A DNA stretch of 64,000 nt from Asterias amurensis. Its lineage: Eukaryota > Echinodermata > Asteroidea > Forcipulatida > Asteriidae. A program made the translations under genes and the position numbers. Position 1 is the stretch's first letter. Every line of letters begins with the position of its first letter. The notes beneath the pieces were generated by a model, which saw only the letters and a program-made list of their open reading frames with translations, searched no databases and was not told where the DNA came from. Shown piece after piece: positions 321-25,123 of the stretch. The stretch spans positions 14,024,501 through 14,088,500 of the forward strand of contig NC_092666.1 in assembly GCF_032118995.1 (NCBI RefSeq). The letters are read 5' to 3'.

Positions 321-2964
321 GTAAAACATATATTGTATTCAATTAATTGCGTTCTTTCAATATAATATTTTCATCCCCCTTAAATACTGTTTTTTTCTTC
401 GAAATCATTTCGTTCCCTTAAACAAAAGTCCTTCCCCCAAAATGCTAATTAATTTTGTTTTCCTCGAAATAAACTTTGCTCATTTGATTTCAGCCACGGC
501 CAAACAAACAAAGGCTCAGTTTGTGACTTTCTGTCTTAATTTCCAATCATCGACCAAGATTTGACTTTCTTAAAAAGTAATTATGTCCCACCTCAGATTG
601 ACGCAAGTTTCCACTATCAGCGGCTCGATCAGACTGGTTCCGGTAAACTAGGCAACCTTGGCAAGCGCCAATACCAGGACGGAAAAGCATATCAATTTAA
701 GTCTTTTGATCTTCTGTCGTGTATTGAATTTAATTGAATTGAAATTACATAAAATAATTCGTTCCTCAAAATAACAATTCGAAGGAACGAATGTGTATTT
801 TAGCGACTACCGATGCCTTTTTAATTTTCAGTTAATATCACGGGATCGCCGTACACTGTAAACAAATTGGGTAAAAAAAATGCCCAGCTGTTTACCCAAT
901 TAAGGGCGAATAGTGAACTCCTCCAACTTTTGGGCAAAATATTACCCATCAAAGTTAGGCACTCTGATTGCCAAATATTTTGTGTAACCAACAGTTGGGT
1001 AATTTTTTGTTTACCCATTTTCTGGGTATTTAATACATTATCAATAACCCACTTATTGGGCGAAGATTTTATTAATGATTTAACCCTTTTCTTTGTTATC
1101 CAACAAATGGTGATTGTATTTAACCCTTTGATTTACAGTTTCTTGTGTGATACGTCATACAACCAGGCGTAGAAAATATCATTTCCACGATGGCAAACGG
1201 TGGTGAGCTGTGACCTTCCAAGGCCTTGGCATCTCTCTCAAAATCGAGAGGGTGCTCAGTGGTTTGTAGATGCTTTGGAAGGTTAGTTTTCAACTAAATA
1301 CTGTTTGTTTCCTGTTCAGTTGTTGTACACAGTCGTGACAGTTGCAGCGCAAGCACACGCATACATGCCACAACCAGCGTTGCACATAATGGCATGATAA
1401 AACTGAAACTAAAAACTGAAACTAGTTCAACAGTAGTGTCACTTTGTTGCTCCCTCTGCAACCAACACGACTATGTACGACTGAATAGAAAACACAACTT
1501 CATGTTTTGTTCAAAACTAACCTTCAAATTTGATCTACAGAACTAAAACAGCCTGCTAATGTGTCTTTTTCTTTTCTTTGTATTGTTGATTTTCGGTGGG
1601 GTGTCAGGGTCCATATTGTTGCTTTTTAATTAAGTTAAACTTTCATTGTATTGTTTCAAGCAGAGTGAGCAGGGAGACGTTGATATCGAAGCTAAGGAAA
1701 CATAATTTCGAGGGAATGAAAATAAATAATTATTTTTTAACCATCGTATAATTTCTTTTGCAATTGTCTCTTTAGAGGATATATCAGGATGTCGGACGAG
1801 ATGCCTTGGGCAATTTTCTATCAACACACGTGCATTTGTGTCGAATTATTTTAGCGACTACCGGTGCCGTTCTAATTTTCAAGTCACCTGGAAGTGGTAT
1901 TTTGTCAAAATAAAGCTTTTTTGTTTCAAAACGTACAAACTCACGACTAGGACTTGAATGTACTTGCACGTACGTGTGTTCGATGTTCGATCGAGGCAAA
2001 GTCTTCCTCGATTGACGTCACAAAAGGGGTAGGCGGAGTCACCCCCTACACAACTTTATTTAATTTTTTAAACATATAAATCGTGACAAACAATTACTCA
2101 AAAAATTATTTTATTGTTCAGGAACATACTCTAATTTTTGAAAGAAAAAATCTATTTCCAGGTGCCTTTCAATTAATATTACGAGATCGCCGTAAACTAA
2201 AACAGCCTGCTAATGTGTCTTTTTCTTTGCTTTGTATTGTTGATTTTCGGTGGGGGTGTCAGGGTCCACGCTGTTGCTTTTTAATTAAATTAAACTTTCA
2301 TTGTATTGTTTCAAGCAGAGTGAGATGAGAGACGTTAATATCGAAGCTAAGGAAACATAATTTCGACGGAATGAAATAATTAATTAATTTTCAACCATCG
2401 TATAATTTCTTTTGTAATTGTCTCTTTAGAGGAGATTCCAAGATGTTGGACGAGATGCCCCGGGCAATTTTCAATCAATACACGTGCATTTGTGTGAAGA
2501 AAGACGGTACTATTCTGGTAGGACATTCCAAGGAGAACGTGATAACCTTAATACACCGTCCTGCTGGTAAGCCAATACACACTACCCGGATATCACTGCC
2601 GAAGTCACCGTGGTTCTTGGCCACTGACTGCAATGACAGAGTGGTTGTCAGTGGCTTTGACGATAACCAAGTTATTGTTATCGATGACCAAGGTGCTACC
2701 CTAGTCACCATCAAACCCACCATGAATGGTCAGCCTGTCAAGTACTGTAGTGGCGTATGCTGCGACGGCTCCGATATCTACGTTGCAATTTTCAATGTTG
2801 CCACTGATTCTGGTCATATTCATCGTTATGATGGTGATGGGAAGTTCATCTCCTGTATTATTCAGGGTCTGTGCTTTCCAATGGGAATCACATTCACGGA
2901 AGATGGTCGACATCACTTGGCAGTAGCAGGCGTAAACGATTTGAACATTTACCAAAAGGTATAA
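176..2964 (+). CDS. TRIM-type RING/B-box/NHL gene, copy 1, 3' part only
   Basis: Last two coding exons of a gene whose RING, B-box and coiled-coil exon lies left of the window. Exons: 176-320 (after tttcttatgtcag; donor gtaaaa at 321) and 2430-2964 (after ttgtctctttag; stop TAA 2962-2964). The frame runs through the junction in phase 2, exactly as in copy 2. The visible part gives about 225 residues of an NHL-like beta-propeller tail with repeated motifs such as IVIDDQGATLVTIKP and HIHRYDGDGKFISC. TRIM proteins of this layout are usually ubiquitin ligases, with the propeller binding substrate or RNA; that role is inferred from the family. Both exons are open and about 90 percent identical to copy 2, so the copy looks functional. 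The intron between them (321-2429) is almost twice as long as in copy 2 because of a tandem duplication and at least two insertions. Confidence 0.85.
494..662 (+). pseudogene. Intronic copy of a coiled-coil exon fragment (TRIM copy 1)
   Basis: About 160 bp near-identical to 9776-9932 inside the large exon of copy 2 (the stretch encoding FPIIDQDLSFLKSN onward). It follows a good acceptor (catttgatttcag). Here the frame has a stop where copy 2's matching fragment reads SLFPII. The same fragment lies in the same intron of copy 2 (11227-11386), so it arose before the gene was duplicated. Either a decayed alternative exon or the remains of an earlier internal duplication. Confidence 0.7.
854..1142. 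repeat. MITE-like insertion with CACTGTAAA ends
   Basis: Present in TRIM copy 1 and absent at the matching point of copy 2 (near 11573). Starts cactgtaaac and has the inverse, tttacagt, near 1136. The interior is full of ttgggtaa and its inverse ttaccca, so it can fold on itself. The 101-codon frame across it is an accident of this repeat. Confidence 0.55.
1277..1527. repeat. Insertion bounded by inverted GAAGGTTAGTTTT
   Basis: gaaggttagtttt at 1277 is matched by its inverse aaaactaaccttc at 1514. The stretch is absent from copy 2. It lies next to the CACTGTAAA element, and the two together fill 854-1540. No target duplication is clear. Confidence 0.4.
1776..1854 (+). pseudogene. Truncated duplicate of the last TRIM exon (decoy exon)
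   Basis: The acceptor ctctttag and the first 19 or so codons of the last exon (MSDEMPWAIFYQHTCICV) are duplicated 654 bp upstream of the intact exon, then run into TAG at 1852-1854. It comes from a tandem duplication of about 0.4 kb of intron plus exon start (units about 800-1850 and 1851-2450, before insertions). If spliced, it would give a TRIM protein lacking most of the propeller. Confidence 0.65.
1883..2166. repeat. MITE with GTCACCTGGAA ends in TRIM copy 1
   Basis: Left end gtcacctggaagtgg, right end ctatttccaggtgcc (imperfect inverse). Flanked by tttcaa on both sides (1877-1882, 2167-2172), and the uninterrupted site ttttcaattaat exists in copy 2 near 11553. The interior holds a CG-rich stretch around 2010. 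Confidence 0.6.
2430..2964 (+). CDS. TRIM copy 1, last coding exon
   Basis: 535 nt including the stop; 177 residues of propeller blades (GDSKMLDEMP onward, ending NIYQKV). It lacks the RING and B-box cysteine pattern, as expected for the C-terminal domain. Nearly all differences from copy 2 keep the frame. Confidence 0.85.
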
Positions 2965-8521: not shown

Positions 8522-8848
8522 TTTGGGTGTATGCCTAACTACATGTATAGTTTCATCTATAGCGCGAAAAGGACACTCCCGGGTCAGTAGACCCACTGAC
8601 CCTAATTCTGGATCTTAGGGGGTTCGACCCGTTCCAGGTCAGTCTAACATGGAGAGTGGTTTTAAGTGTAAGCTTAACTGTGATTCTGTCATTTGGACAC
8701 ATCCATAATCATGTTGACACAGACTATTTGTGAAAACTGACCCGGGATGAGTCGGCCACCACGAGATCAAAATCGGGGTCAAATGTTCATCTTTTTCTTT
8801 GGTTGCTAAATCTAATTTCTAATTTGTTTTATTTGTATTTTCTACTAG

Positions 8849-10126
8849 GTAAAATGGCGAGTGCATCTGCGGTACTCAAGGAAATTGGTCAAGACTTTTT
8901 GGAATGTGGTATTTGTTTTGAACGGTACACAAATCCCAAAATCCTCAGTTGCGTTCACAGCTTCTGTGAAAAATGTTTGGTTCAATACTATGGCAACGAT
9001 GTTGTAAAAACTTGTCCAGTGTGTCGGCAAGAGACACGACTACCAGTGCCAGGGGGCATCAGTGGCCTCAAGACCAATGGGTTCATAATAACATTGAGGG
9101 AAAAAGTCGAGCTCCAGGAGAAGGTTGCCAAACTATCAGACAAAGCACGACGAACATGTGAATTATGTACTGAGAACGAGTTTACACATCATTGTTTAAA
9201 CTGCTCTCAGAATATCTGCCAGGGCTGCATGAACATTCACAAGCGAAGCAAATTTTCTGCTGATCACAAAGTTGGAACCTTGGAAGATATTCGCGAGGGA
9301 AAGGTTACCCTACCAGAGGTACAGAAGGAGTATACATGTAACACGCACAAGGGTGAGATCAATCGATTCTACTGTGAGACATGTCATGTCTTGATTTGTC
9401 ACGTTTGCGCTGTTTATAACCATTGCAAACCCGAGCATCAGTACATTGATTGCGCATCAGCTTCTTCCAAATATAAGAGGGGTTTTAAAGTACTATTTCC
9501 CACCATTACCAATGAAATCAAACATGTTAAAGAATGTTTAGATCTTGCATGCAAAGCTCAGCAACAATTTGAAAGGAAAGTTACACAAACAGTGCAAGAG
9601 GTGAAGAAGGGAGCAGATTGGGCGAGGGACAAAGTGAAAGCCGAAGAAGACCGAATTCTTAAAGAGATCCGGGTCCTAAAGGAGGATCGCAGCACAGCAT
9701 TTGACGAACAAATAAAAACAATAAAATCTTTGCTTCACAGGAAGCAAGATACACTGACCATCGCAAGAGATGTCACAAACAAAGGCTCAGATAGTGACTT
9801 TCTGTCTTTATTTCCAATCATCGACCAAGATTTGTCTTTCTTAAAAAGTAATAAAGTCCCACCTCAGATTGACGCATGTTTCCACTATCAGCGGCTCGAT
9901 CAGACTGGTTCCATTAAACTAGGCAACCTGGAGATCGGAACTAAGTGGGAGCTGCATCGTGAAGTCAGTCGGCATTGGACGAAGAGGGAGTTGTTTTGTG
10001 ATATAGCAACTCTGCCAGGTGACAGACTTGCAGTAACTACCGCCATCACCCCACTTTCACATTATGGAAAATTGTTTATCTGCAGGACTGATGGTGAACA
10101 TGAGAAAACTATTCCAATGAAGGGAT
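8849..10126 (+). CDS. TRIM copy 2, large exon (RING, B-boxes, coiled coil)
   Basis: Acceptor ttttctactag at 8848, donor gtaagt at 10127; leaves in phase 1. Encodes residues 1-424. The 3' third (9776-9932) is the source of, or sister to, the intronic fragments at 494 and 11227. Confidence 0.9.
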
Positions 10127-12343
10127 GTAAGTGTTCCGATGAAAACATGTTATTTCACTTTCTCAACAGGAGGGCTCTGTCTTGTAAGCTTCGAATATCT
10201 TGTGTGAAACAAAGATGCAGTGACGTTTGTAATTACAATCGTTGCGCTAAAGACGTGACTTGGGGGGGGGGGGGGTGTGAGACAAACCAGCATAAAAGAA
10301 AAAATGACTCTTCGATAAATGGGCTCTGACATTTTGATGGTCGACATGTCGTCTGCTCCCGACTGCGAGGGCGGTGTGGGTTTGATTGCTGAACGAATCA
10401 CCAATTGGACTCACGAATTAAAATAGAAAGTCTGCTATATTTTCAAGTAATCACTACAGGGTGTTTATTCTATTTATTTTCTTATGTCAGGTTGTCAAAA
10501 TGGCATAGCATCTGTTCGCAATGGCTTAATGGCGGCTGATGAGAACGGATGTGTCCATATCTACAGTGAGGATTTCACAACCTCTCAGCTTCATCCAACC
10601 CTTGATGGAAAGATAGACGAAAAGAGTAGGAAAAAGTAAAACATAATATTATATTCAATTAATTGCGTTCTCTCAATATAATATAGGTTTTCTCGGTCAA
10701 ATTCAGAAAATGAGCAGCCAATTTCATTTTCATGCGTTCGAATTAAAGCTGTTTTGCCTCTCCAGTTGTTACTGCGTTTCAAATTCAGAATTCGGCCATT
10801 CAATTTCGTTTTGAGTCGGGTCAAATTCCTTTAGCACTCTGTTCAATTTAGCGTATCGTCATTCTTTTTCGTGACACACACGCCTCAAGATGCACCTGTG
10901 AATTTGAATGCTGCTTTGATGAATTGTTAAATTGAATGATTATTTTGTTAAATCGAATGACACAACATTACATTTGACTAATCAAAAAACGAAATCAAAT
11001 AACCATTTTCAGTAGCATTCGATTTCGCGCGAAATAGAATAGCTTGGTGGTTTAATTGGCTGCTCATTTGCCGAAATTGACCGAGAAAACCTATATTATC
11101 TTCTTCCCCCTCAAATACTGTTTTTTCCCCTCGAAATCATTTCGTTCCCTTAAAAAAAGTCCTTCCCCCAAAATGCTAATTTGTTTTCCTCGAAATAAAC
11201 TTTGCTCATTTGATTTCAGCCACGCCCAAACAAACAAACGCTCAGATTGTGGCTTTCTGTCTTTATTTCCAATCATCGACCAAGATTTGACTTTCTTAAA
11301 AAGTAATTATGTCCCACCTCAGATTGACGCAAGTGTCCACTATCAGCGGCTCGATCAGACTGGTTCCGGTAAACTAGGCAACCTTGGCAAGCGCCAATAC
11401 CAGGACGGAAAAGCACATCAATTTAAGTCTGTTTATCTTCTGTCGTGTATTGAATTTAATTGAATTGAAATTACATAAAATAATTCGTTCCTCAAAATAA
11501 CAATTCGAAGGAACGAATTATTTTTCCGGCTACCGATGCCTTTTTAATTTTCAATTAATATTACGAGATCGCCGTAAAACTAAAACAGCCTGCTAATGTG
11601 TCTTTTTGTTTACTTTGTATTGTTTATTTTCGGTGGGGTGTCAGGTTCCATATTGTTGCTTTTTAATTGAATTAAACTTTCATTGTATTGTTTCAAGCAG
11701 AGTGAGCAGGGAGACGTTGATATCGAAGCTAAGGAAACATAATTTCGAGGGAATGAAATAAATAATTATTGTTTAACCATCGTATAATTTCTTTTGTAAT
11801 TGTCTTTTTAGAGGATATCTGAGGATGTTTCACGAGAAGCCTTGGGCAGTTTTCAATGAATACACATGCATTTGTATGAAGAAAGATGGTACTATTCTGG
11901 TAGGATATTCCACGGAGAACGTGATAACCTCAATACACCGTCCTGGCGGTAAGCCAATATACACTACCCGTATACCACTGCCGAAGACACCGCGGTTCTT
12001 GGCCACTGACTGCAATGACAGAATAGTTGTCAGTTGCGGTATTGACCACCAAGTTATTGTTATCGATGACCAAGGTGCTACCCTAGTCACCATCAAACCC
12101 ACCATGAATGGTCAGCCTGTTGACTACTGCAGGGGCGTATGCTGCAACGGCTCCGATATCTACGTGGCAGTTACCAACCGTGACCCTGTTTCTGGTCATA
12201 TCCATCGTTATGATAGTGATGGGAAGTTCATCTCCTGTATTATTCAGGGTCTGAGTTATCCAATGGGAATCACATTCACGGAAGATGGTCGACATCACTT
12301 GGCAGTAGCAGGCGTAAAAGATGTGAAAATTTACCAACAATAA
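8854..12343 (+). CDS. TRIM-type protein with RING, two B-boxes, coiled coil and NHL-like propeller, copy 2
   Basis: Complete gene. Exons: 8854-10126 (UTR from 8849), 10491-10635, 11812-12343; sum 1950 nt = 649 codons plus stop. RING C3HC4: C18, C21, C33, H35, C38, C41, C54, C57. B-box 1 about residues 100-145 (CELC...C..C...C..C), B-box 2 about 162-203 (CNTHKGE...CETC..LIC). Long charged coiled coil about 205-310, then propeller blades to the end. The start MASASAVLK is preferred over the upstream in-frame ATG (8803) because the latter lies in the intron before the acceptor tctactag. Family members are ubiquitin ligases; the TRIM2/3/45/56-like layout is clear but I cannot name an orthologue. 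A read-through of the first donor would add a spurious tail ending near 10329. Confidence 0.9.
10491..10635 (+). CDS. TRIM copy 2, second coding exon
   Basis: Acceptor tttcttatgtcag, donor gtaaaa at 10636. The junction codon is TGT, giving CCQNGIASVRNGLMAADE. 145 nt, the same length as in copy 1. Confidence 0.88.
10685..11093. repeat. MITE with AGGTTTTCTCGGTCAA ends
   Basis: About 409 bp with long inverted ends: aggttttctcggtcaaattc at the left, gaccgagaaaacct at the right, with gagcagccaatt / aattggctgctc just inside. Flanked by atat on both sides. TRIM copy 1 has the uninterrupted site near 360 (aatataatattttcatc), so it inserted after the gene duplication. A TA-rich target, Tc1/mariner-like, is possible. 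Confidence 0.75.
11227..11386 (+). pseudogene. Intronic copy of a coiled-coil exon fragment (TRIM copy 2)
   Basis: Same fragment as 494-662, here still open (FLSLFPIIDQDLTFLKSN), after the acceptor catttgatttcag at 11219. It has no obvious donor in a useful frame, so it is probably a relic rather than a used exon. Confidence 0.65.
11812..12343 (+). CDS. TRIM copy 2, last coding exon
   Basis: Acceptor attgtctttttag; 532 nt with the stop TAA 12341-12343. Encodes residues 473-649 of the propeller, ending VKIYQQ. Confidence 0.9.
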
Positions 12344-15179: not shown

Positions 15180-15864
15180 CAAACCCCTAAACATGAGACA
15201 ACCGGTACCCCTACCCTACCCCCTTTCAACAATTCACTGGAGAGCAACAAACCTGGACTCCCTCTCTCCAACCCACCAAAGCCCAGATCCTTGTGGGACA
15301 ATGAAGAATATGCTATCCGCTGTGGGATGCACCAAACTCCTCACACAACCCGTCCCACCCGCATCTTTACACACCCCAACCCACCCAACTCCTTAGACAA
15401 CCCACCCAAACCCAGATCTTAAGGAATTCCTTGAGGGATGGATGATGAAGGGTTTGCTATCTGCTGTGGCACCCTAACCCGTCCCACCCAAATCCTTACA
15501 CAAACCATCACACCCACTTCTATTCACACCCCAACCCGCCCAACTCCTTAGACGACCCACCATAACCCTGATCCTAGGGAATTCCTTGAGGGACGATGAA
15601 GAATATATGCTATCCGCTGTGACACCCCAACCCCACCCAACTCCTTAGACAACCCACCCAAACCCAGATCCTAAGGAATACCTTGACGGACGATGAAGAA
15701 TATATGCTATCCGCTGTGACACCCCAACCCCACCCAACTCCTTAGACAACCCACCCAAACCCAGATCCTAAGGAACACCTTGACGGACGATGAAGAATAT
15801 ATGCTATCCGCTGTGACACCCCAACCCCACCCAACTCCTTAGACAACCCACCCAAACCCAGACC
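15180..15864 (-). repeat. Minisatellite derived from the PSENEN terminal exon and 3'UTR
   Basis: Units of 98 bp at the right (ccgctgtgac at 15613, 15711, 15809) and longer, more decayed units at the left (anchors near 15299, 15446, 15595). On the minus strand each unit carries the end of the PEN-2 coding region: the unit near 15590 reads ATCGTCCCTCAAGG... then TAG, i.e. IVPQGIP-stop, and the unit near 15780 reads IVRQGVP-stop. This is followed by about 40 bp of 3'UTR-like GGGTTTGGGTGGG. Five extra copies beyond the genic one. Confidence 0.85.
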
Positions 15865-16004
15865 CTAGGGAATTCCTTGAGGGACGATGAAGGAAATGCT
15901 ATCTGCTGTAGCACCCCACCTGGATCGATTGAGCTGGAACAACGTTATCCAAGTGATCAGAGCGGCCGTCCATATCACGGACCCAATGCACGATCTGATT
16001 AAAT
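15865..16004 (-). CDS. PSENEN: PSENEN coding exon 3
   Basis: Acceptor (minus) cttatcttctctag; 140 nt, residues 56-101, stop at 15865-15867. Holds the second main hydrophobic segment and the functional C-terminal DSISF motif. Its last 57 or so nt are the seed of the adjoining minisatellite. Confidence 0.96.
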
Positions 16005-16337
16005 CTAGAGAAGATAAGGAACGAATGAGATTCATTAAAGAGAAGGTAAACATTTCGTATACACTTTTAAAGTTAATGGCAATACAAACTACTTGTAAGA
16101 AAGTATTGTTTGAAGCATTGCAATGCATGGTGTGGAGAAATAGGAACTAGCAATAAATTATAAATTTGCAGGTACACGTACTTGTAAAAAGCCTATGGCA
16201 GACTGCAACTATCTAAGAGGTAAATATACTCTTAATCCTAAACAGTGACTGAAGCCTATTCATATGTCACTGTACTGTATAAAAATTGTGCTTTTTAAAA
16301 CACTATTAAAACTTTACATAATAAACATGCATAACAC

Positions 16338-16385
<48 letters not shown>

Positions 16386-18515
16386 CATTTATAATGTGCC
16401 ATTTATCTAGTGTACAAGACCCTCTTCTGAGGCACAGAACAAAAAAAAAAAACATATACAACAAAATGGAAATATAGTGTACAATAAAAAATTATATAAT
16501 GAATAATCTAAGTCAAGACATGTAACAAGCTAAGTGTATGAGGATGTAAATAAATGAGTTTTCAGCAAGTTTTTAAACAATGGAAGAGAACTACAGCGAT
16601 GTAATTAGGTAAGGCATTCCAAATCCAAAGTTTAGGAGCACAAGCGGAAAAGCCACATATCAGTCGGATAAAAGTAATGGTAAACCATTGCAATAAACAA
16701 AGTCAATAACAATTCAAAAACCAGAAAAGAGTAAACATCAATCAAAATGGGTGGAAATAAACAAATGAAATAATAATACATCAAGAAATAATGCAGTGTG
16801 TAACAATGACAAATAAATGCAAAGACAAGTAAAATAGTAATATTAAAAACAAATGTGCAATTAAAAATGAAATATTTATATACATGTAGTATGCAGAATA
16901 GAAGGCAATAAAAAGCAGTAAAAAAGTTACTTTATGTAATTCATGTAAAGGACTGATACTTCAACAGAGGACATTAAAGGCAGTGGACACTATTAGTAAT
17001 TACTCAAAATAATTGTTAGCATAAAACCTTTCTTTGTGACGAGTAATGGGGAGAGGTTGATGGTATAAAACATTGTGAGAAACGGCTCCCTCTGTAGTGC
17101 CAAAGTTTTCGAGAAAGAAGTCATTTTCAACGAATTTGATTTCGAGACCTCAGATTTAGAACTTGAGGTCTCGAAATTAACCATCTAAACGCGCACAACT
17201 TCGTGTGACTAAAAGGTTTCTTTTTTCATTATTATCTCGCAACTTTGATGACCAATTGAGCTTAAATTTTCACAGGTTAGTTTTTTATGCTTATTTTGAA
17301 ATACACCAACTGTGACGGCTAGTCTTTGACAATTACCAATAGTGTCCACTGCCTTTAATCATTGCTATGGTGCCCTTTGAAAAGGTCATTTGGTGCATGC
17401 CCTCTGAAAATATCCAAGGTGCTCTTCACAAAATGTCAATGTGCAAATTTCAATTTGGAAAGCCCCTTCATAAAAGACAACACTTTCCTAGCCCTCACAA
17501 GAATATAGTTTCAGGCCTTAATGTAAACGCATGTCACCGAGGAAGAGCCCTTGGTGTAAAGACTCAAGTTTTGGTAGGTGAGTCGTCAAGAGTATGGGGT
17601 GGAATCCCTGTCCTGACACTGTTTGTCCTTGAGCCAGACACCTTACCAGGGGTACATTGGTACCTGCAATAATGAGAGGGTTCATATGACTGGTTTTCCT
17701 TGGTGCACTACATACGTATATATGTACAGTACTTGGCAGCACAGATTGTATGTAGTTTAAGGAATTTATGTCTCAGTGACAAGAAGTAATAACGTTCAAA
17801 GCCCAATGCTCAAACATCATTACAGGAAAAAGATTCATTAATAAAAATATTAATAAATAGAGATTTGTATAGCGCAAATTTCACCCATAAATCAATAAGT
17901 GCATTACAACACGTATTCTAAACTTTTATAAAAAACTTTTTAGATAACAAGTACTGAAAAATTACAACCTACATGTACATGTACTTAAAAATGTACATAC
18001 ACGCACAATGACATAAAAGAAAAATTAAAAAAGAAAAGTCTTCACTTAAAATTATCAATAAAATGGCTTACATTTTTTCATTTGTTTCTGCTCATCGAAT
18101 GCTGGTCTTATAAACGCTTCCTTGAAGAACCAGACAAAGTTGATGAACCACAAGAAAGGCAGCAAGAAGAAACCACCTGAAGAATAAAGAAAGGATGTCA
18201 CAGTCAAGCTGATGTTTATTTAACTGAAACTGTAAAATTGTCGGGGGGGGGGGGGGGGGGGGCAGAGGAGGGGTACACAATTTTTTTCTAGGGGGCCCAG
18301 GCTTCTTTAAGTACAATTCTTCATTCATTAAAACAGAAACCAAATACAAAGTTCCTTGTTCATGTTGTTAATCTAAATTTGATTTGTGTTCTTTTGTCAT
18401 GATGACTGGGCCCTTCCCTTGTCGATTTTCAACTAACACAATTTCAGCATTTACCGATGTAATATTTGCGACACAACCCCAACTTGTCGACATCTGAAAG
18501 CTTCTCCAGATTCAT
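15865..18515 (-). CDS. PSENEN: Gamma-secretase subunit PEN-2
   Basis: Minus-strand exons 18515-18455, 18176-18072, 16004-15865; sum 306 nt = 101 codons plus stop, the same length as human PEN-2. N-terminus MNLEKLSDVDKLGLCRKYY matches the family; middle GGFFLLPFLWFINFVWFFKE; C-terminus ADSISFIVPQGIP with the conserved D90, F94, P97 and G99. PEN-2 is a small membrane protein of the gamma-secretase complex that triggers presenilin endoproteolysis, so it acts in Notch cleavage (known of the family). It is convergent with TRIM copy 2 and divergent from U2AF1. Intron 2 (16005-18071) carries MITE-A and a (taa)n tract. The plus-strand frame across the last exon is a shadow. Confidence 0.97.
16005..16977. 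other. PSENEN intron 2, left part
   Basis: 16339-16385 is a (taa)n microsatellite. With 16386-16440 it looks like the minus-strand 3' tail of a retroelement (inverse of gtgcc...gtacactagataaatggc + (att)n). 16441-16900 is A-rich with no gene. Confidence 0.5.
16978..17354 (+). repeat. MITE-A copy (PSENEN intron 2)
   Basis: TTAA at 16974 and 17355. Left ggcagtggacactattagtaatt, right aattaccaatagtgtccact: near-perfect ends. Central palindrome gagacctcag...ttgaggtctc intact. Among the best-preserved copies. Confidence 0.92.
17355..18071. other. PSENEN intron 2, right part
   Basis: 17370-17520 is a decayed repeat rich in ggtgccctt, related to 24695-24880 and 25217-25400. 17850-17910 resembles a retroelement tail (tagagatttgtatagcgc). 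No gene. Confidence 0.4.
18072..18176 (-). CDS. PSENEN: PSENEN coding exon 2
   Basis: Acceptor (minus) ctttattcttcag, donor gtaagcc; 105 nt, residues 21-55, ending at KQMKK with a phase-1 junction to Y56. Confidence 0.96.
18241..18261. repeat. Poly-G tract
   Basis: Run of about 20 G in PSENEN intron 1, a possible G-quadruplex former. A second run is at 18781-18793. Confidence 0.85.
18455..18515 (-). CDS. PSENEN: PSENEN coding exon 1
   Basis: Start codon (minus) at 18515-18513; 61 coding nt, donor gtaaatgc. The exon continues as 5'UTR to about 18566, where an acceptor (tttcccatcag on the minus strand) implies another upstream noncoding exon. Confidence 0.95.
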
Positions 18516-18923
18516 TGCTGACTTGTTGTATATAAAGATGAAGCCACGAAACACAGTCTCGAGGACCTGATGGGAAATGGGGAAAAAAAATTAAAATTAC
18601 CAAATTACATCATTCATTGTGTGGTGTGATTTCATTTATTAAATCATTATAATAATAATTTAAATTATTTCCCAAACAAAAATGATATAATTATTCCTTT
18701 TTCTTTTTGTGAAAATTGGTGAAAAGGTGGTGGTCGTGGATTTTATTTCTTATTTTTGTCCGGATTCTCTTTTTTTGGCGGGGGGGGGGGGGGCTAAGTT
18801 TTTTACACACACACTGTAGGCGCTATAATAGTGTATATCATCAGTGGGAATTCCATCAGTGTTCATTGATTTGAGTGAAGATTGAACATGTTGAAATTGA
18901 AATGAATAATTGTAAAAACTCAC

Positions 18924-19603
18924 CAAAACAAATACTGAGGAAACTTGTGTTTATTTGCGGATTTCTAGCTAACCCCGAGTATTATTCGTAGAGCTCATTT
19001 ACTACACTACAGTCTCATTGCTATCACAATAATAAGGAAAGAACTAGAAACAAATAACCGACACTAGTTCAGAAACCGGAACTGGAAATAAATTTTGTCA
19101 TCACAACTTTGTTATCTTTTATAACAATTTAATTATAATTTAGTAATTTAAAAGAAGAATTATCTTTTTAAAAACCATATTAGTGTTAAAATATTTATTT
19201 CAGTAATGAATAAGTCAAATTATTAATAAAACTATATCACAATATAAAACAAAGTTTACAGTATAATGAACGTGGATATTACTGTCAATTCGCCCCCACT
19301 GCGTTAGAGATTTACGCCCCCATCGCACGTTTTACAAAACTTTTTTATTTATCAAATCCTTCAAAAGTTACACAATCATACTGTTTTAAAAGAATGCTGT
19401 TTTCAGCTCATACTTAAAAGCTATTACTTAGTTTTGTCTTAAATTTTAATTGATGTTAAAAATATATGCTGTAATTTATTTAGAAATTTTACCGACGCAT
19501 TAATCGAAGTGGGGCGAAAAGGTTTTGGGGCGAGAAACGTTTTCTCACAAAAACGATAATCCAACGCGAGAGTTCGTCGTGAGTTTACCAACAAAAAAGC
19601 AAC
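18924..19603. promoter_or_regulatory. Likely shared promoter between PSENEN and U2AF1
   Basis: The two genes point away from each other with 1,088 bp between start codons. A minus-strand donor (gtgagt, 18923-18918) could end PSENEN's noncoding first exon, placing its start only a few hundred bp from U2AF1. CpG-bearing sequence with the palindrome gagaaacgttttctc sits at about 19528, just upstream of the U2AF1 start. No TATA box is evident. Inference. Confidence 0.5.
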
Positions 19604-19647
19604 ATGGCGGAGTATTTAGCGTCGATTTTTGGAACAGAGAAAGACAA
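19604..19647 (+). CDS. U2AF1: U2AF1 coding exon 1
   Basis: Context acaaaaaagcaacATGG; residues 1-14 plus two bases of K15; donor gtaagttt. Confidence 0.97.
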
Positions 19648-22600
19648 GTAAGTTTGAGTGTTTTCCTCAGTTGATGTTCTGATTTGTATTTTAACGAGTG
19701 TCCTACATAGATATACGATTGGAGAATTTGCTTGGTAATTTCTGCTTTCGTTTTTGTTTCTTATTTCAATTGGTTGATGTAATTTTGACAAAAAACCACG
19801 GCGTCCACGCTCATGCGCTGGCCTGCGTCGTCGCGGGACCAGTCGCTGAGTCGTCAGCATGCCCAGTTCTTCACCCGTTTCCCGAAACGTGTGTGATTGT
19901 TTAAAATTATAAATTAAAATACTCTTTGATGTGGTTTTGGTGTTAGCATTGAGGAAGGTGGAATCGAGTTATTTTGAGAATGCGGGTTCAGATTGCTGAA
20001 CTGAACAATCATGACAATTGCATTTGCAAATTAAATTGGTATTTTTTGTCCCTTTTTGCTGATTAGTGATTGTTTTTTTTTTTTTTTTTTTTTTAATATA
20101 TATTATTTTTCAAATTTTGATTTAATCTTTTAAAATAATTTGTATGTTTGTTAATTATTTTGAAATTTGGATAACTTTCCGTATGGCGCCACCACTTTTT
20201 CACTCATTTTTACAAAAAGGGATATATCAATCAGGTAAATTAGATACTATATTATTCTATTTCGAATGAAAAAGTGGTGGCGCCATACGGAAACTTTTCC
20301 TGAAATATTTATAATATTATTATTATTGATAATGATAGACCATGCTATTCAATCACATTATTTGTACCGTTTTAAGTGTTTTCTTGCTTGTGTTTAAGTT
20401 TCGTTAGAATTGCACTTGGCAGTTGTTACATCCATCTCGGCCCCATGGATGGGTAGATGTACAACAATACAATTAACATAATACCTAAACATGACACACA
20501 TTTTATGTTATGGATCAGGATAGGCCCCTATTTCAATTTATAAATTAAGTTTTTAAGAGAAATGAATTTAACACTTCCAGCAGAGAAGGAGTTTCTTCAC
20601 AAAGTTTCATCTTGATCAAGGGAAGACACTACTTACTGCCTAGCCTGGACTTGACGCTAGTGTTTGAGTATTTTACACAAGTATATAAATGCCAAAAGAA
20701 AAAAAACTCAGTTGATCAGCCGGATTTTTCAAAAAGAGGAGGATGAGGGCCTTACTATTTACTATTTGTTTTTTGTTTTCTCAAGATGGCCGCTTAGTAT
20801 TTCAAATCAAACAGGCCACCAATTCTTCAGTTTGAACCCATTCAAACTTATTTTATACCTATTTGTTGCATGAGGACCTGTGTTAACACTATTACTGTAT
20901 TAGTATTAACAGTGTCGGATTTTTAAAAAGATTTGCTGGTAGGCATTCACTATTATTGTTTTATGAAACAGACGGTTACACGTGTTCGAGAGCATCACTT
21001 TAAATTCGGAAAAAAGCTCCTACGCCAGTCCTTTTGAAAAGATGGAGGTGTTTTTTTTTTTTTCACAAAAATAACAAAGGATGCAGCCCCCAAAAAGGAT
21101 GCGGGCAGGGACGATCAGCTGTTTTTGTTTTAGTTTTTTTTGCCTAACTCTAAGGTGTGCAAACGATCGCCACGTCGCAGACTTTGACGCACCAGGTTGA
21201 ACAATTGTATTTTTTATTTGTGTTTTTTTTTCAGAGTCAACTGTTCCTTCTACTTCAAGATTGGTGCATGTCGCCATGGGGACCGTTGCTCTCGACTTCA
21301 CAACAAGCCAACGTTCAGTCAGACGATTGTTCTGTCCAACATTTACCAGAATCCACAGAACACTGCACAAAGTGCAGATGGAGGAAACAGTAAGAAAGAA
21401 ACTTCAATTATTATTATTTTTTTAAAGTTATTTGTTATCCCGCTTACTTCGTCAAGGCACTGGACACATTTGGTAAAATTTCAAAGACCAGTATACTCAC
21501 TTGGTGTACCCCAACATAAGCATAACAGAACAAGTCTTTGAAATTTTTGACTCAGTTGGTCATCACAAAAGTAAGAAAATAGTGAAAGAAAAAAAAATCC
21601 TTTTTGCACAAATTTTTCTGATTTCTTTAATGAGAAACATAATTTCAAATAAAATTTTGCTAACAATAACGTTTGTTTTGTTTTCTTGACAGTTTCCAAT
21701 GTATCAGATGTAGAAATGCAGCAACATTTTGACGATTTCTTTGAGGAGGTTTTCACAGAACTGGAGGAGAAGTATGGAGAAATTGAGGAAATGAACGTCT
21801 GCGACAATTTAGGAGACCATCTTGTGGGCAATGTCTACGTGAAGGTACTTTAGCTGTTTGGTTATAAACTAACGTCCGCTTTTATTAAAACAAATTGTAT
21901 TTGAATTAAAGGAACACATTGCCTTGGATCGGTCGAGTTGGTCTTTGAAAAGCGTATGTAACCGTTTGTTATAGAATGCATATGATTAGAAAGATATTTT
22001 AAAAGGAGAGTAGAATGATCCACACAAGTATCACTCGAAATTGCGTGGTTTTCCTTTTACCTCGTTGGCCAACACGGTCGGCCATTTATGGGAGTCAACC
22101 ATAAATGGCTGACCGTGTTAGTTCGCAAAGTAAAAGGAAAACCACGCAATTTTGAGGCAAATGTGTGTAGATCATTGCATTCTACTTTTTAAACATCTTT
22201 CTAACCATATGCATTTTATAACAAACGGTTACAAACACTTTTCAAAGACTAAATCGACTGATCCAAGGCAACGTGTTCCTTTAATAGTGATGTAAGAACT
22301 TAACTTCCAAAGTGGTCAGGCGTTGTGCTCGCTAAAGTGTTCCTACTTTTTTCAAGGACCAACGACCAAATATCATGGCTGCATAAAATGCTTCTTGAAT
22401 TTTTTTTTGTTAGTATCGCCGTGAGGAGGACGCGGAGTCAGCAGTCACCAATTTGAACAATCGATGGTTCAACGGTCAGCCAATCAGAGCCGAGCTCTCT
22501 CCAGTGACAGACTTCAGAGAGGCCTGCTGTCGCCAGTATGAAATGGGGTGAGTGGAAAAAGGAAATGTTCTTAACCTTTGACCTGGCTCTAATCTGTCAT

Positions 22601-25123
22601 GAAGTCAATCCCTTTTTAGATTTTTTACAACCAGGGTTTTTTGTTTAAAGGCAGTGGACACTATTGGTAATTACTCATAATAATTTTTGGAATAAAACCT
22701 TACTTGGTAAAGAGTAATGGGGAGAGGTTGATAGTATAAAGCATTGTGAGAAACAGCTCCATCTGAAGTGATGTAGTTTTGGAGAAAGAAGTAATGTTCC
22801 AAGAATTTGATTTTGAGACCTCAGATTTAGAACTTGAGGTCTCAAAATCAACCATCTAAACGCACACAACTTCGTGTGACAAGGTTGTTTTTTTCTTTCA
22901 TTATTATCTCGCAAGTTCGAAGACGGATTGAGGTCAAATTTTCACAGGTTTGTTATTTCATGCATATGTTGACATACACCATATGAGAAGTAGTGCTGGG
23001 CGAATAGTGAAATTTTGTTATGCGGATACCCCTGGCCAACTATCCGAAATTATCGGATATTCAAATAGTTTTTTTGTCGCTAGAGGGCGCTGTTCGTTTG
23101 TGAATGAGATCTTCTGGGCGGATTGATATTAGTTTTAGACAGTGTCACTCGGTTCATTCATAAAAATGACCGGATCTAATTTAAAGATGGCGATTTGCTT
23201 TTTCTTTTGATCGTGGATGACTCTACGTGAAGGAAAACTTTTGTAATCTTTGAACAAATTACGTCAGAAATGTCATTGTTTTAACTCTTCACGGAGGTGA
23301 GCATAGTTAAATACTTAATTTATGCTGTCTTAATAGAAGTTTCATTAGGATTCAGACAAAACACTCATGTCAGTTGTCGCCCGACGTCCGCGGATATTCG
23401 GATATTAAAGAATATCCGGTTACTTGGTTGTAATTACAGAACTATCCGGTTTATAAATAGCTATTCGCGCCCTATGCGGATATCCGGTTAAGAAAAAAAA
23501 GGCATTCGCGGTTACGGATAGGAAAACCTATTCGCCATTAACCGGATATTCAAATAATTCGCCCAGGCCTGGTCTATGACAATTACCAATAGTGTCCACT
23601 GTCTTTAAAGCCATTGGACCCTTTCGGTAAACAGTATTGTCCAAGGCCCACACTTCGTGTATCACAACTTCTATATCAAATAACAAACCTGTGGAAATCT
23701 AGGCTCAATCGGACATCGGAGTCGGGAGAAAATAACGGGAAAACCTACTCCTGTTTTCGCGCGTTTCGCCGTTTCATGACATGTGTTTATAACAAATCCG
23801 TAATTCTCGTTAACGAGAATTTATATTGTTTTACCGTTTTCTCAAAAAGTAAAGCATTTCATGGACTAATATTTCAAGAGAAGTCTTTCACCATTACCTT
23901 CTGTAAACCCTGTAAATTATTTGTAAATCTGTGAACTTTTTTTTTTTTCTGTACCGAAAGGGTCCAATGGCTTTAAGGGCTTAATTTTCGTGTTTTTTTT
24001 TTTGTTTTTTTTTTTTTTTCGATTTGAAAATTGTGTGTATTAATACATGCGGGCTAGTGAAAAAACCTGCGGGCGATCGAGAATTGTGGTTGACGCGACC
24101 GGCGGGCGATTGAAAAAAAAAGTTAAGGGAAACCCTTGTGCACAAACCAGGCATTTTTGTTTAAGTACCAGCTGTACAAACAGAAGAAACCCATGCATCC
24201 AATGCTGGCTGAAATGGTGTCCGCCTAACTGAAACTCTCATAACGTGGCCATGACCGCAAGACATAATAAATATCACAACAATAACTGATGCACCCGGAC
24301 ACACTCAAGGTTAAATTAACAACTATTACTATTTCCAAAATTGTATTTACAAGTTTCATTTAGGCGCATTTCTTAATCGTATAAATCTTGATAAACTACT
24401 TGTAGTTTGTGGAAGATGTTTGGTCCCACAGTATGGTAGCAGGATTATTCTAAGCCAGATTATGAGTAAGAGGGAAGCGAAGTACTGGTAAGCAGTGGAG
24501 GAGTGCCTTGCTGCATTGGCTTTCCAGAGAGTCATGTTATAAATCAATCCTTTTTAGGTAATTTTTTTACAGTCCTGTTCCAGCTTTTGCCAAGACTTGG
24601 ACTAATAATGCTTGCTGATATGCTTAAAGTTAACTTCATCTCTCCTTACGCTGGCTTTGCTTTTCTTAATCCATCACATATCAACGTCATTATTGATGCA
24701 GGCCTGATACTTCACAGAGGCAACGGAAGCGATTGCCTCCGTTGCCCCTTGTCATTGCCTTGGTGCCCTTGAAATGCTCCAGTAGAAATTTACAATTTCC
24801 TCATAGGGTGCCCTTTGCCAAAGAGAAAATGCCTTGGTGCCCTTGCCCTTTCAAAAACGAAGCATACAGCCCTGTTGATGAAATAGATGTCTGATACTGT
24901 TTTGTTTTTTTGTAGGGAATGCACCCGAGGTGGTTTCTGTAACTTCATGCATCTGAAGCCGATCTCTCGTCAGCTTCGGCGAAAGCTGTATGGGCTCCGG
25001 AAGAAGAGACGATCCCGCTCGCGCTCTCCAAGCAGAGAGAGAAAGAGGTCGCGCTCCCGGAGCCGAGACCGCTCCCGTCGACGAGGCAGGTCTGGGGAAC
25101 AGGAGCGCTCCGGTCGGTTTTAA
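19604..25123 (+). CDS. U2AF1: Splicing factor U2AF small subunit (U2AF35)
   Basis: Exons 19604-19647, 21235-21389, 21693-21844, 22414-22547, 24916-25123; sum 693 nt = 230 codons plus stop. Starts [15 protein letters not shown], identical to the family. Zinc finger 1 ([20 protein letters not shown]) and zinc finger 2 ([20 protein letters not shown]) are intact. Between them lies the UHM/RRM domain ([19 protein letters not shown]), and the C-terminal RS domain is an Arg/Ser run. U2AF35 reads the AG of the 3' splice site and pairs with U2AF65 through the UHM (known). Serine in RCSRLH and glutamine in CRQYEMG, the human S34 and Q157 positions, are conserved. Introns carry MITE-A, -B, -C and hAT-like insertions but all splice sites are clean. 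Confidence 0.98.
19648..21234. other. U2AF1 intron 1
   Basis: Holds the 20175-20294 hairpin, poly-T (20068-20094) and AT-rich sequence. No second gene seen. Confidence 0.6.
20175..20294. repeat. 120-bp hairpin element
   Basis: ttccgtatggcgccaccact... at 20177 is inverse to ...gtggtggcgccatacggaa ending 20292, arms about 26 bp without mismatch. The loop is AT-rich. It looks like a small MITE; class unknown. Confidence 0.75.
21235..21389 (+). CDS. U2AF1: U2AF1 coding exon 2
   Basis: Acceptor tgtttttttttcag; residues 15 (part) to 66; zinc finger 1 and the linker [15 protein letters not shown]. Donor gtaaga. No duplicate alternative exon like the vertebrate Ab/3 pair is seen nearby. Confidence 0.97.
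21452..21640 (-). repeat. Truncated MITE-A (A' subfamily), U2AF1 intron 2
   Basis: Starts aaggcactggacacatttgg, then ttcaaagaccagtatactcacttggtgtacc; the far half is missing. It fills much of the 303-bp intron and ends about 50 bp before the next acceptor. Confidence 0.65.
21693..21844 (+). CDS. U2AF1: U2AF1 coding exon 3
   Basis: Acceptor gttttcttgacag; first half of the UHM ([18 protein letters not shown] onward to NVYVK), phase 0 exit. Confidence 0.97.
21910..22280. repeat. MITE-B copy 2 (U2AF1 intron 3)
   Basis: TTAA at 21906 and 22281; ends aggaacacattgcctt / aaggcaacgtgttcct. Full foldback except for a shortened centre. Lies in a transcribed intron of 569 bp, of which it makes up two thirds. 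Confidence 0.92.
22414..22547 (+). CDS. U2AF1: U2AF1 coding exon 4
   Basis: Acceptor tttttttttgttag; second half of the UHM ([20 protein letters not shown]) and the start of zinc finger 2; donor gtgagt splits a glycine codon. Confidence 0.97.
22649..23604 (+). repeat. MITE-A copy split by a hAT-like element (U2AF1 intron 4)
   Basis: TTAA at 22645; left end ggcagtggacactattgg; right end ccaatagtgtccactgtc at 23586-23603, with the closing TTAA (23605-23608) shared with the next element. The two parts, 22649-22990 and 23574-23604, are separated by the element below. Confidence 0.88.
22991..23573. repeat. hAT-like non-autonomous element nested in MITE-A
   Basis: Left tagtgctgggcgaatagtg, right ataattcgcccaggcctg: the gctgggcgaa / ttcgcccag type of end seen in hAT elements. 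Interior with many atccgg/ccggat repeats. A clean 8-bp target duplication is not visible. Confidence 0.6.
23609..23972. repeat. MITE-C copy 1 (U2AF1 intron 4)
   Basis: TTAA at 23605 and 23973. Left agccattggaccctttcgg, right ccgaaagggtccaatggct, exact inverse ends of about 22 bp. Abuts MITE-A through a single TTAA. Inside is the palindrome attctcgttaacgagaat. Confidence 0.88.
24695..24880. repeat. Dispersed ggtgcccttg-rich repeat (U2AF1 intron 4)
   Basis: Starts aggcctgatacttcacag, rich in ttgccttggtgcccttg. Related patches lie at 25217-25400 (U2AF1 3'UTR or flank) and 17370-17520. Class unknown. Confidence 0.45.
24916..25123 (+). CDS. U2AF1: U2AF1 coding exon 5 (zinc finger 2 and RS domain)
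   Basis: Acceptor ttttttgtag; [12 protein letters not shown] completes zinc finger 2, then an Arg/Ser-rich tail to the stop at 25121-25123. The tail is shorter than in human and lacks the glycine run. Confidence 0.97.

Follow-up and report, generated by a model that had tools for sequence, protein, structure and literature searches.

The genes PSENEN, for a subunit of the protease that cleaves Notch, and U2AF1, for a splicing factor that reads the 3' splice site, lie head to head in the starfish Asterias amurensis, within a 64,000-nucleotide stretch of contig NC_092666.1 (positions 14,024,501 to 14,088,500, hereafter the window), and the best explanation for this arrangement is that it is homologous to the human PSENEN-U2AF1L4 pair. 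PSENEN is encoded on the minus strand and U2AF1 on the plus strand, positions 15865-25123 of the window spanning exactly from the stop codon of the former to the stop codon of the latter. The gene models gave a distance of 1,089 bp from ATG to ATG, bearing out the initial annotation, in which the genes were placed back to back with approximately 1.1 kb between their starts. We consider it probable that a single ancestral divergent pair, probably with one shared promoter, was split among paralogues by genome duplication. That human PSENEN stands head to head with U2AF1L4 had also been proposed in the initial annotation and is borne out by the literature, where the pair on chromosome 19 is described as having a validated bidirectional promoter in which mutations affect both genes, the two being expressed together in multiple cell types (PMC6121907, citing Didych et al. 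2013). The human arrangement is already known, and its extension to an echinoderm is what is added here.

The starfish PSENEN gene is intact, with GT/AG introns and coding exons of 61, 105 and 140 nt that together give 306 nt and a protein of 101 aa. This protein matched the PEN-2 family PF10251 with 131.3 bits (cut-off 25) over profile positions 2-93 of 93, and 56 of its 101 residues were identical to human PEN-2 (PDB 5a63_D) in an alignment without gaps. A PEN-2 profile search of the 491.5-Mb, 23-contig genome produced two matches, both at the PSENEN locus, and none elsewhere. The coding sequence is interrupted by introns at c.61/62 and c.166/167, the same positions as in human NM_172341.4, where the reported splice variants c.62-1, c.166+2 and c.167-2 mark both coding introns and where coding is described as starting in exon 2 (PMC8986338, PMC11476843). 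A 3' splice site preceded by a long pyrimidine tract was noted 51 nt upstream of the starfish PSENEN ATG (18566; judged by eye and unscored), and the donor at 18923 was the best of 59 GT dinucleotides between 18567 and 19700, with a weight-matrix score of 4.5 bits, the runner-up reaching 1.8. PSENEN is accordingly predicted to have a non-coding first exon as in human, a feature missed in the initial annotation, and all three of its introns are probably common to starfish and human. Alternative 3' acceptors yielding products of 67-68 aa were rejected, as about a third of the protein would be lost. Behind the gene, positions 15288-15918 hold a 97-bp tandem array built partly from PSENEN's own end; it includes five diverged extra copies (about 36-56 bases) of the last coding stretch, at 15288, 15420, 15574, 15671 and 15768, four of which retain the stop-codon part.

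U2AF1 is likewise intact, with five coding exons over 19604-25123, GT/AG introns and 693 nt of coding sequence for a protein of 230 aa. Pfam domains comprised zf-CCCH in two stretches flanking RRM_1, and an RS tail was read in the translation; residues 1-205 matched Schizosaccharomyces pombe U2AF23 and residues 43-147 the human U2AF35 fragment 1jmt. When the 491.5-Mb genome was searched with U2AF1, four of the five matches lay at this locus, and the fifth, on C12, showed 36% identity over 58 residues and probably represents another gene with the same motif, such as ZRSR2. Vertebrate U2AF1 is reported to carry a duplicated exon, Ab/3 (PMC5224494); no sign of this duplication was seen in the starfish, where U2AF1 residues 15-69 matched one genomic place only. 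A chance reading of open reading frames is rejected, since the genes match their families over nearly the full length and have clean splice sites. Intron 1 of U2AF1 contains, at 20169-20300, an element resembling a miniature inverted-repeat transposable element, with 37-nt inverted ends that are 92% complementary. By eye, positions 22650-23610, in a U2AF1 intron, and 16974-17358, in PSENEN intron 3, are copies of one repeat (GGCAGTGGACACTATT...), the former seemingly split by a CpG-rich stretch.

Common ancestry of the starfish and human pairs is far likelier than chance, because partner and orientation are the same, the genes are of single occurrence and the PSENEN coding introns are identical. 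A total of 16,531 genes is reported for A. amurensis (PMC10625585), and with this number the probability that a given gene adjoins a given partner is about 1 in 8,000, and less for a given orientation; coincidence is unlikely, also when the small number of genes in the window is taken into account. The two pairs are alike in their partner families, their divergent layout and the positions of the PSENEN coding introns, and also, as predicted for the starfish, in that coding begins in exon 2. They differ in that the human partner is U2AF1L4 whereas the starfish partner is U2AF1, and in that a small promoter has been described and assayed for the human pair, whilst the starfish start sites are predicted. 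The initial annotation had suggested that the linkage, and perhaps a two-way promoter, has lasted since early deuterostomes; the linkage is supported, homology of the two pairs being its best explanation, and the promoter part is likely for the starfish.

This assessment of the promoter draws on the sequence between the genes. Transcription starts are likely to lie no more than 680 bp apart, since the predicted non-coding exon 1, with its donor at 18923, would place the PSENEN start at most 680 bp from the start codon of U2AF1. The sole match in the genome to this 680-bp stretch was itself. The ratio of observed to expected CpG dinucleotides (CpG o/e) peaked over 19001-20250, as expected for an unmethylated promoter, and the value of 1.53 at 19251-19750 ranked second among 254 intervals. 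A scan of 18924-19700 with 19 motif patterns found four GGGCG boxes, two per gene strand, against 0.15 expected, a count reached in none of 200 shuffles. The factors for the GGGGGCG and TGGGGCGA forms of this box we take to be of the Sp/KLF type. Support for a YY1-like site at the U2AF1 start is marginal, and TATAAAAG on the PSENEN strand could still be a real TATA box despite its chance-level count; initiator (Inr), weak ETS, TCT and downstream promoter element (DPE)-like patterns occurred at chance level. A shared promoter, with start sites that are predicted, is likely in the starfish. None of the 10 scanned of the 11 open reading frames of at least 40 aa in the gap between PSENEN and U2AF1 matched a Pfam family.

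Table 1. Features of the PSENEN-U2AF1 locus (positions within the window)
Feature	Position	Strand	Remarks
PSENEN exon 4, coding part	15865-16004	-	Ends in TAG; covers PF10251 positions 51-93
PSENEN exon 3	18072-18176	-	105 nt, c.62-166; exon boundaries match human NM_172341.4 as reported (PMC8986338)
PSENEN exon 2	18455-18566	-	Predicted 3' splice site before 18566; 51 nt of 5' untranslated region; ATG at 18515; coding to c.61 (18515-18455)
PSENEN non-coding exon 1, predicted	18924-19100	-	Donor at 18923 (GTGAGT); upper limit 19100 arbitrary
Candidate shared promoter region	18924-19603		680 bp; CpG o/e peak; four GGGCG boxes
TATAAAAG, possible TATA box	19116-19123	- (PSENEN strand)	1 seen against 0.90 expected, chance level
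Two GGGGGCG boxes (Sp/KLF-like)	19291-19297, 19315-19321	- (PSENEN strand)	Motif scan
Two TGGGGCGA boxes (Sp/KLF-like)	19510-19517, 19526-19533	+ (U2AF1 strand)	Motif scan
YY1-like AACATGGCG	19601-19609	+	Overlaps U2AF1 start codon; 1 seen against 0.01 expected, P 0.015 uncorrected for 19 patterns
U2AF1 coding exon 1	19604-19647	+	Gene model
U2AF1 exon 2	21235-21389	+	Gene model
U2AF1 exon 3	21693-21844	+	Gene model
U2AF1 exon 4	22414-22547	+	Gene model
U2AF1 exon 5	24916-25123	+	RS-rich tail and stop

The window lies on starfish chromosome 19 (C19), which makes up 3.2% of the genome, and the relation of the pair to the two human paralogues was approached through markers chosen for their human positions. 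We take TMEM147, HAUS5, LIN37, COX6B1, POLR2I and TBCB to be neighbours at human 19q13.12, LIN37 presumably being the other neighbour of PSENEN, and CBS, RRP1, TRAPPC10, PDXK and NDUFV3 to be neighbours at 21q22.3. Two of the six 19q13.12 markers were located on C19 (P 0.014), namely TMEM147 and HAUS5, with LIN37 on C2, COX6B1 on C11 and both POLR2I and TBCB on C1. Similarly, CBS and RRP1 were found on C19 and TRAPPC10 and PDXK on C14, two of four 21q22.3 markers thus sharing the chromosome of the pair (P 0.006). NDUFV3 was not found in the starfish and its search matched in no control genome either, so that 10 of 11 single-gene markers were located. C19 therefore holds four of the ten (TMEM147, HAUS5, CBS and RRP1) against the 3.2% expected (binomial P 1.9e-4). 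Each of the two human regions seems to retain parts of a single ancestral chromosome, the evidence being supportive but small. As markers from both human loci share one starfish chromosome, these data suggest that U2AF1 and U2AF1L4 are whole-genome-duplication paralogues, of which U2AF1L4 kept PSENEN and U2AF1 kept the sequence. Over its first 185 residues starfish U2AF1 was identical to human U2AF1 at 163 of 184 positions and to U2AF1L4 at 154 of 184; at 28 sites that distinguish the two human paralogues, the starfish residue agreed with U2AF1 at 14, with U2AF1L4 at 5 and with neither at 9, which indicates that the copy that kept its place, U2AF1L4, changed more. Neither human locus alone would then be ancestral, the U2AF1L4 copy having kept PSENEN and the U2AF1 copy CBS and RRP1. 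Two CBS-like genes were observed on C19, at 12208821-12213382 and 12263823-12272027, about 50 kb apart and in opposite orientation, and the presence of both TRAPPC10 and PDXK on C14 suggests that 21q22.3 mixes two ancestral chromosomes.

In the history that we favor, the last common ancestor of echinoderms and vertebrates would have possessed one divergent PSENEN-U2AF1-type pair, both genes starting in divergent initiation from one short open promoter region of about 0.5-0.7 kb, and common activators (Sp/KLF-like and possibly YY1-like) may have served the two genes. Separation of the pair would deprive one of these two important genes of some of its promoter sequence, and breaks would be selected against. 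The vertebrate whole-genome duplications would then have copied the region, one duplicate keeping PSENEN with the future U2AF1L4 and another keeping U2AF1 near CBS and losing PSENEN. In this model the start sites in the starfish, the shared promoter, the duplication history and the selection are inferred, promoter function being published for the human pair only. We also put forward, tentatively and with considerable doubt, the stronger proposal that the promoter has been effectively unsplittable since the first deuterostomes or earlier and that, after duplication, it fixed which U2AF1 copy stayed by PSENEN, U2AF1L4 keeping the place and U2AF1 the sequence.

A number of observations weigh against this history. 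The evidence comes directly from one starfish genome and otherwise from the human literature. The CpG peak leans to U2AF1, two intervals over 18501-19250, which include the predicted PSENEN exon 1, giving 0.66 and 0.70, and the top CpG o/e of all (1.56) was at 23001, inside a U2AF1 intron, so that the signal is not specific. Among the 19 patterns GGGCG alone was in clear excess, and strong ETS, NRF1, GC-box GGGGCGG, CCAAT and E-box patterns had no match in 18924-19700. Six of the ten located markers lie off C19, LIN37 on C2 included, and the PDXK match on C14 was below the family cut-off exon by exon. The HSP20 genes, excluded from the marker tally as a multi-copy family and represented near the two human loci, we assume, by CRYAA and HSPB6, were found at four loci (C8, C3, C3 and C9), none of them on C19. 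U2AF1L4 is moreover called a mammalian paralogue (PMC13326754), and PMC7392665 discusses it in mammals; if the gene were confined to mammals, its origin by genome duplication would need many losses. U2AF1L4 is, however, listed as one of the candidate genes in a salamander study, presumably by annotation (PMC8867708), and the order seen in the starfish is itself an argument that PSENEN had a U2AF1-type neighbour long before mammals.

The main rival account is that an ancestral adjacency was kept by passive inertia, a short gap being rarely hit by rearrangement with no need of promoter sharing. The small distance between the two ATG codons suits this account, as do the sequence-based nature of the case for promoter sharing in the starfish and the lopsidedness of the CpG peak; however, the nearby gene order seems to have turned over, a TRIM-like gene and an ammonium transporter being the only other genes recognized in the window among 18 further open reading frames scanned, whilst LIN37, the other neighbour of PSENEN in human, lies on C2. 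Furthermore, the human gap is described as a working two-way promoter (PMC6121907), and human head-to-head pairs within 1 kb are reported to be kept more than tail-to-tail pairs (PMC2423431), and we regard inertia as unlikely. The version given in the initial annotation, in which the ancestral locus belongs to U2AF1L4 rather than U2AF1 and by which U2AF1 would be a later, relocated copy, is correct in that U2AF1L4 retains the PSENEN partner that starfish U2AF1 has. It is nevertheless too strong as worded and, we judge, quite improbable, since CBS and RRP1, the assumed human neighbours of U2AF1, share the starfish chromosome of the pair and the starfish protein sides with U2AF1 at most of the differing sites that match either paralogue. 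Independent pairing in the echinoderm and vertebrate lineages could draw on a comparison that spans starfish and human only and on the description of U2AF1L4 as mammalian, but the same two families would have had to meet twice in the same orientation, at the odds per given neighbour calculated above, and the shared chromosome-level markers point to common descent; we hold it to be very improbable indeed.

In being a pair of adjacent genes that stayed together, the locus resembles the subject of the work of Irimia et al. from 2012, which by its title concerns ancient metazoan microsynteny kept through cis-regulatory constraint. A published precedent is the head-to-head pair SERPINI1-PDCD10, which has an 851-bp two-way promoter in human and for which promoter sharing has been offered as the reason for its retention (PMC2556349, PMC1796892); that pair consists of other genes and was studied in lancelet, in vertebrates and in sea urchin, where the distance is within 20 kb, whereas PSENEN-U2AF1 is known from one starfish genome and the human literature. 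PSENEN-U2AF1 belongs to this known class of kept head-to-head pairs. Orthologous pairs in all seven other vertebrates were reported for 60 of 821 human bidirectional pairs (PMC2423431), and survival of such a pair to echinoderms is probably unusual, yet of a known kind. Among the papers listed in a literature search, with most subscription journals outside it, none appeared to treat the evolution of the PSENEN-U2AF1L4 pair or to report the pair outside mammals, which does not establish absence from print.

The only other genes recognized in the window, in a partial annotation in which 18 further open reading frames were scanned against Pfam (8, then 10 more, of which none matched), were a RING/B-box (TRIM-like) gene and an ammonium transporter. 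The former, on the plus strand over 8734-12343, comprises 8734-10326 and, further along, a C-terminal piece at 11777-12340; this piece occurs again at 2380-2961 (within 2380-2964, plus strand), and both C-terminal pieces gave Pfam matches only below the cut-off. The ammonium transporter gene (PF00909), also on the plus strand, occupies 40642-60696 in at least four pieces across about 20 kb. A scan of the 64-kb window against Rfam gave no matches. In a viral contig collection, U2AF1 and PEN-2 gave 11 and 17 pattern matches, respectively, with no relatives among them, and a scan of a genome contig collection with U2AF1 gave 163 pattern matches, again with no relatives.

Pathogenic splice variants of PSENEN are reported in hidradenitis suppurativa (PMC8986338), and for this reason some medical relevance may attach to promoter variants that act on both genes of a pair together. 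The findings extend to an echinoderm an arrangement whose two-way promoter has been tested in human, and they offer a clear case in which to ask whether chromosome breaks are prevented by promoter sharing. It also leads to the prediction that U2AF1L4 would be much older than mammals and in its original place, in contrast to its description as a mammalian paralogue (PMC13326754).

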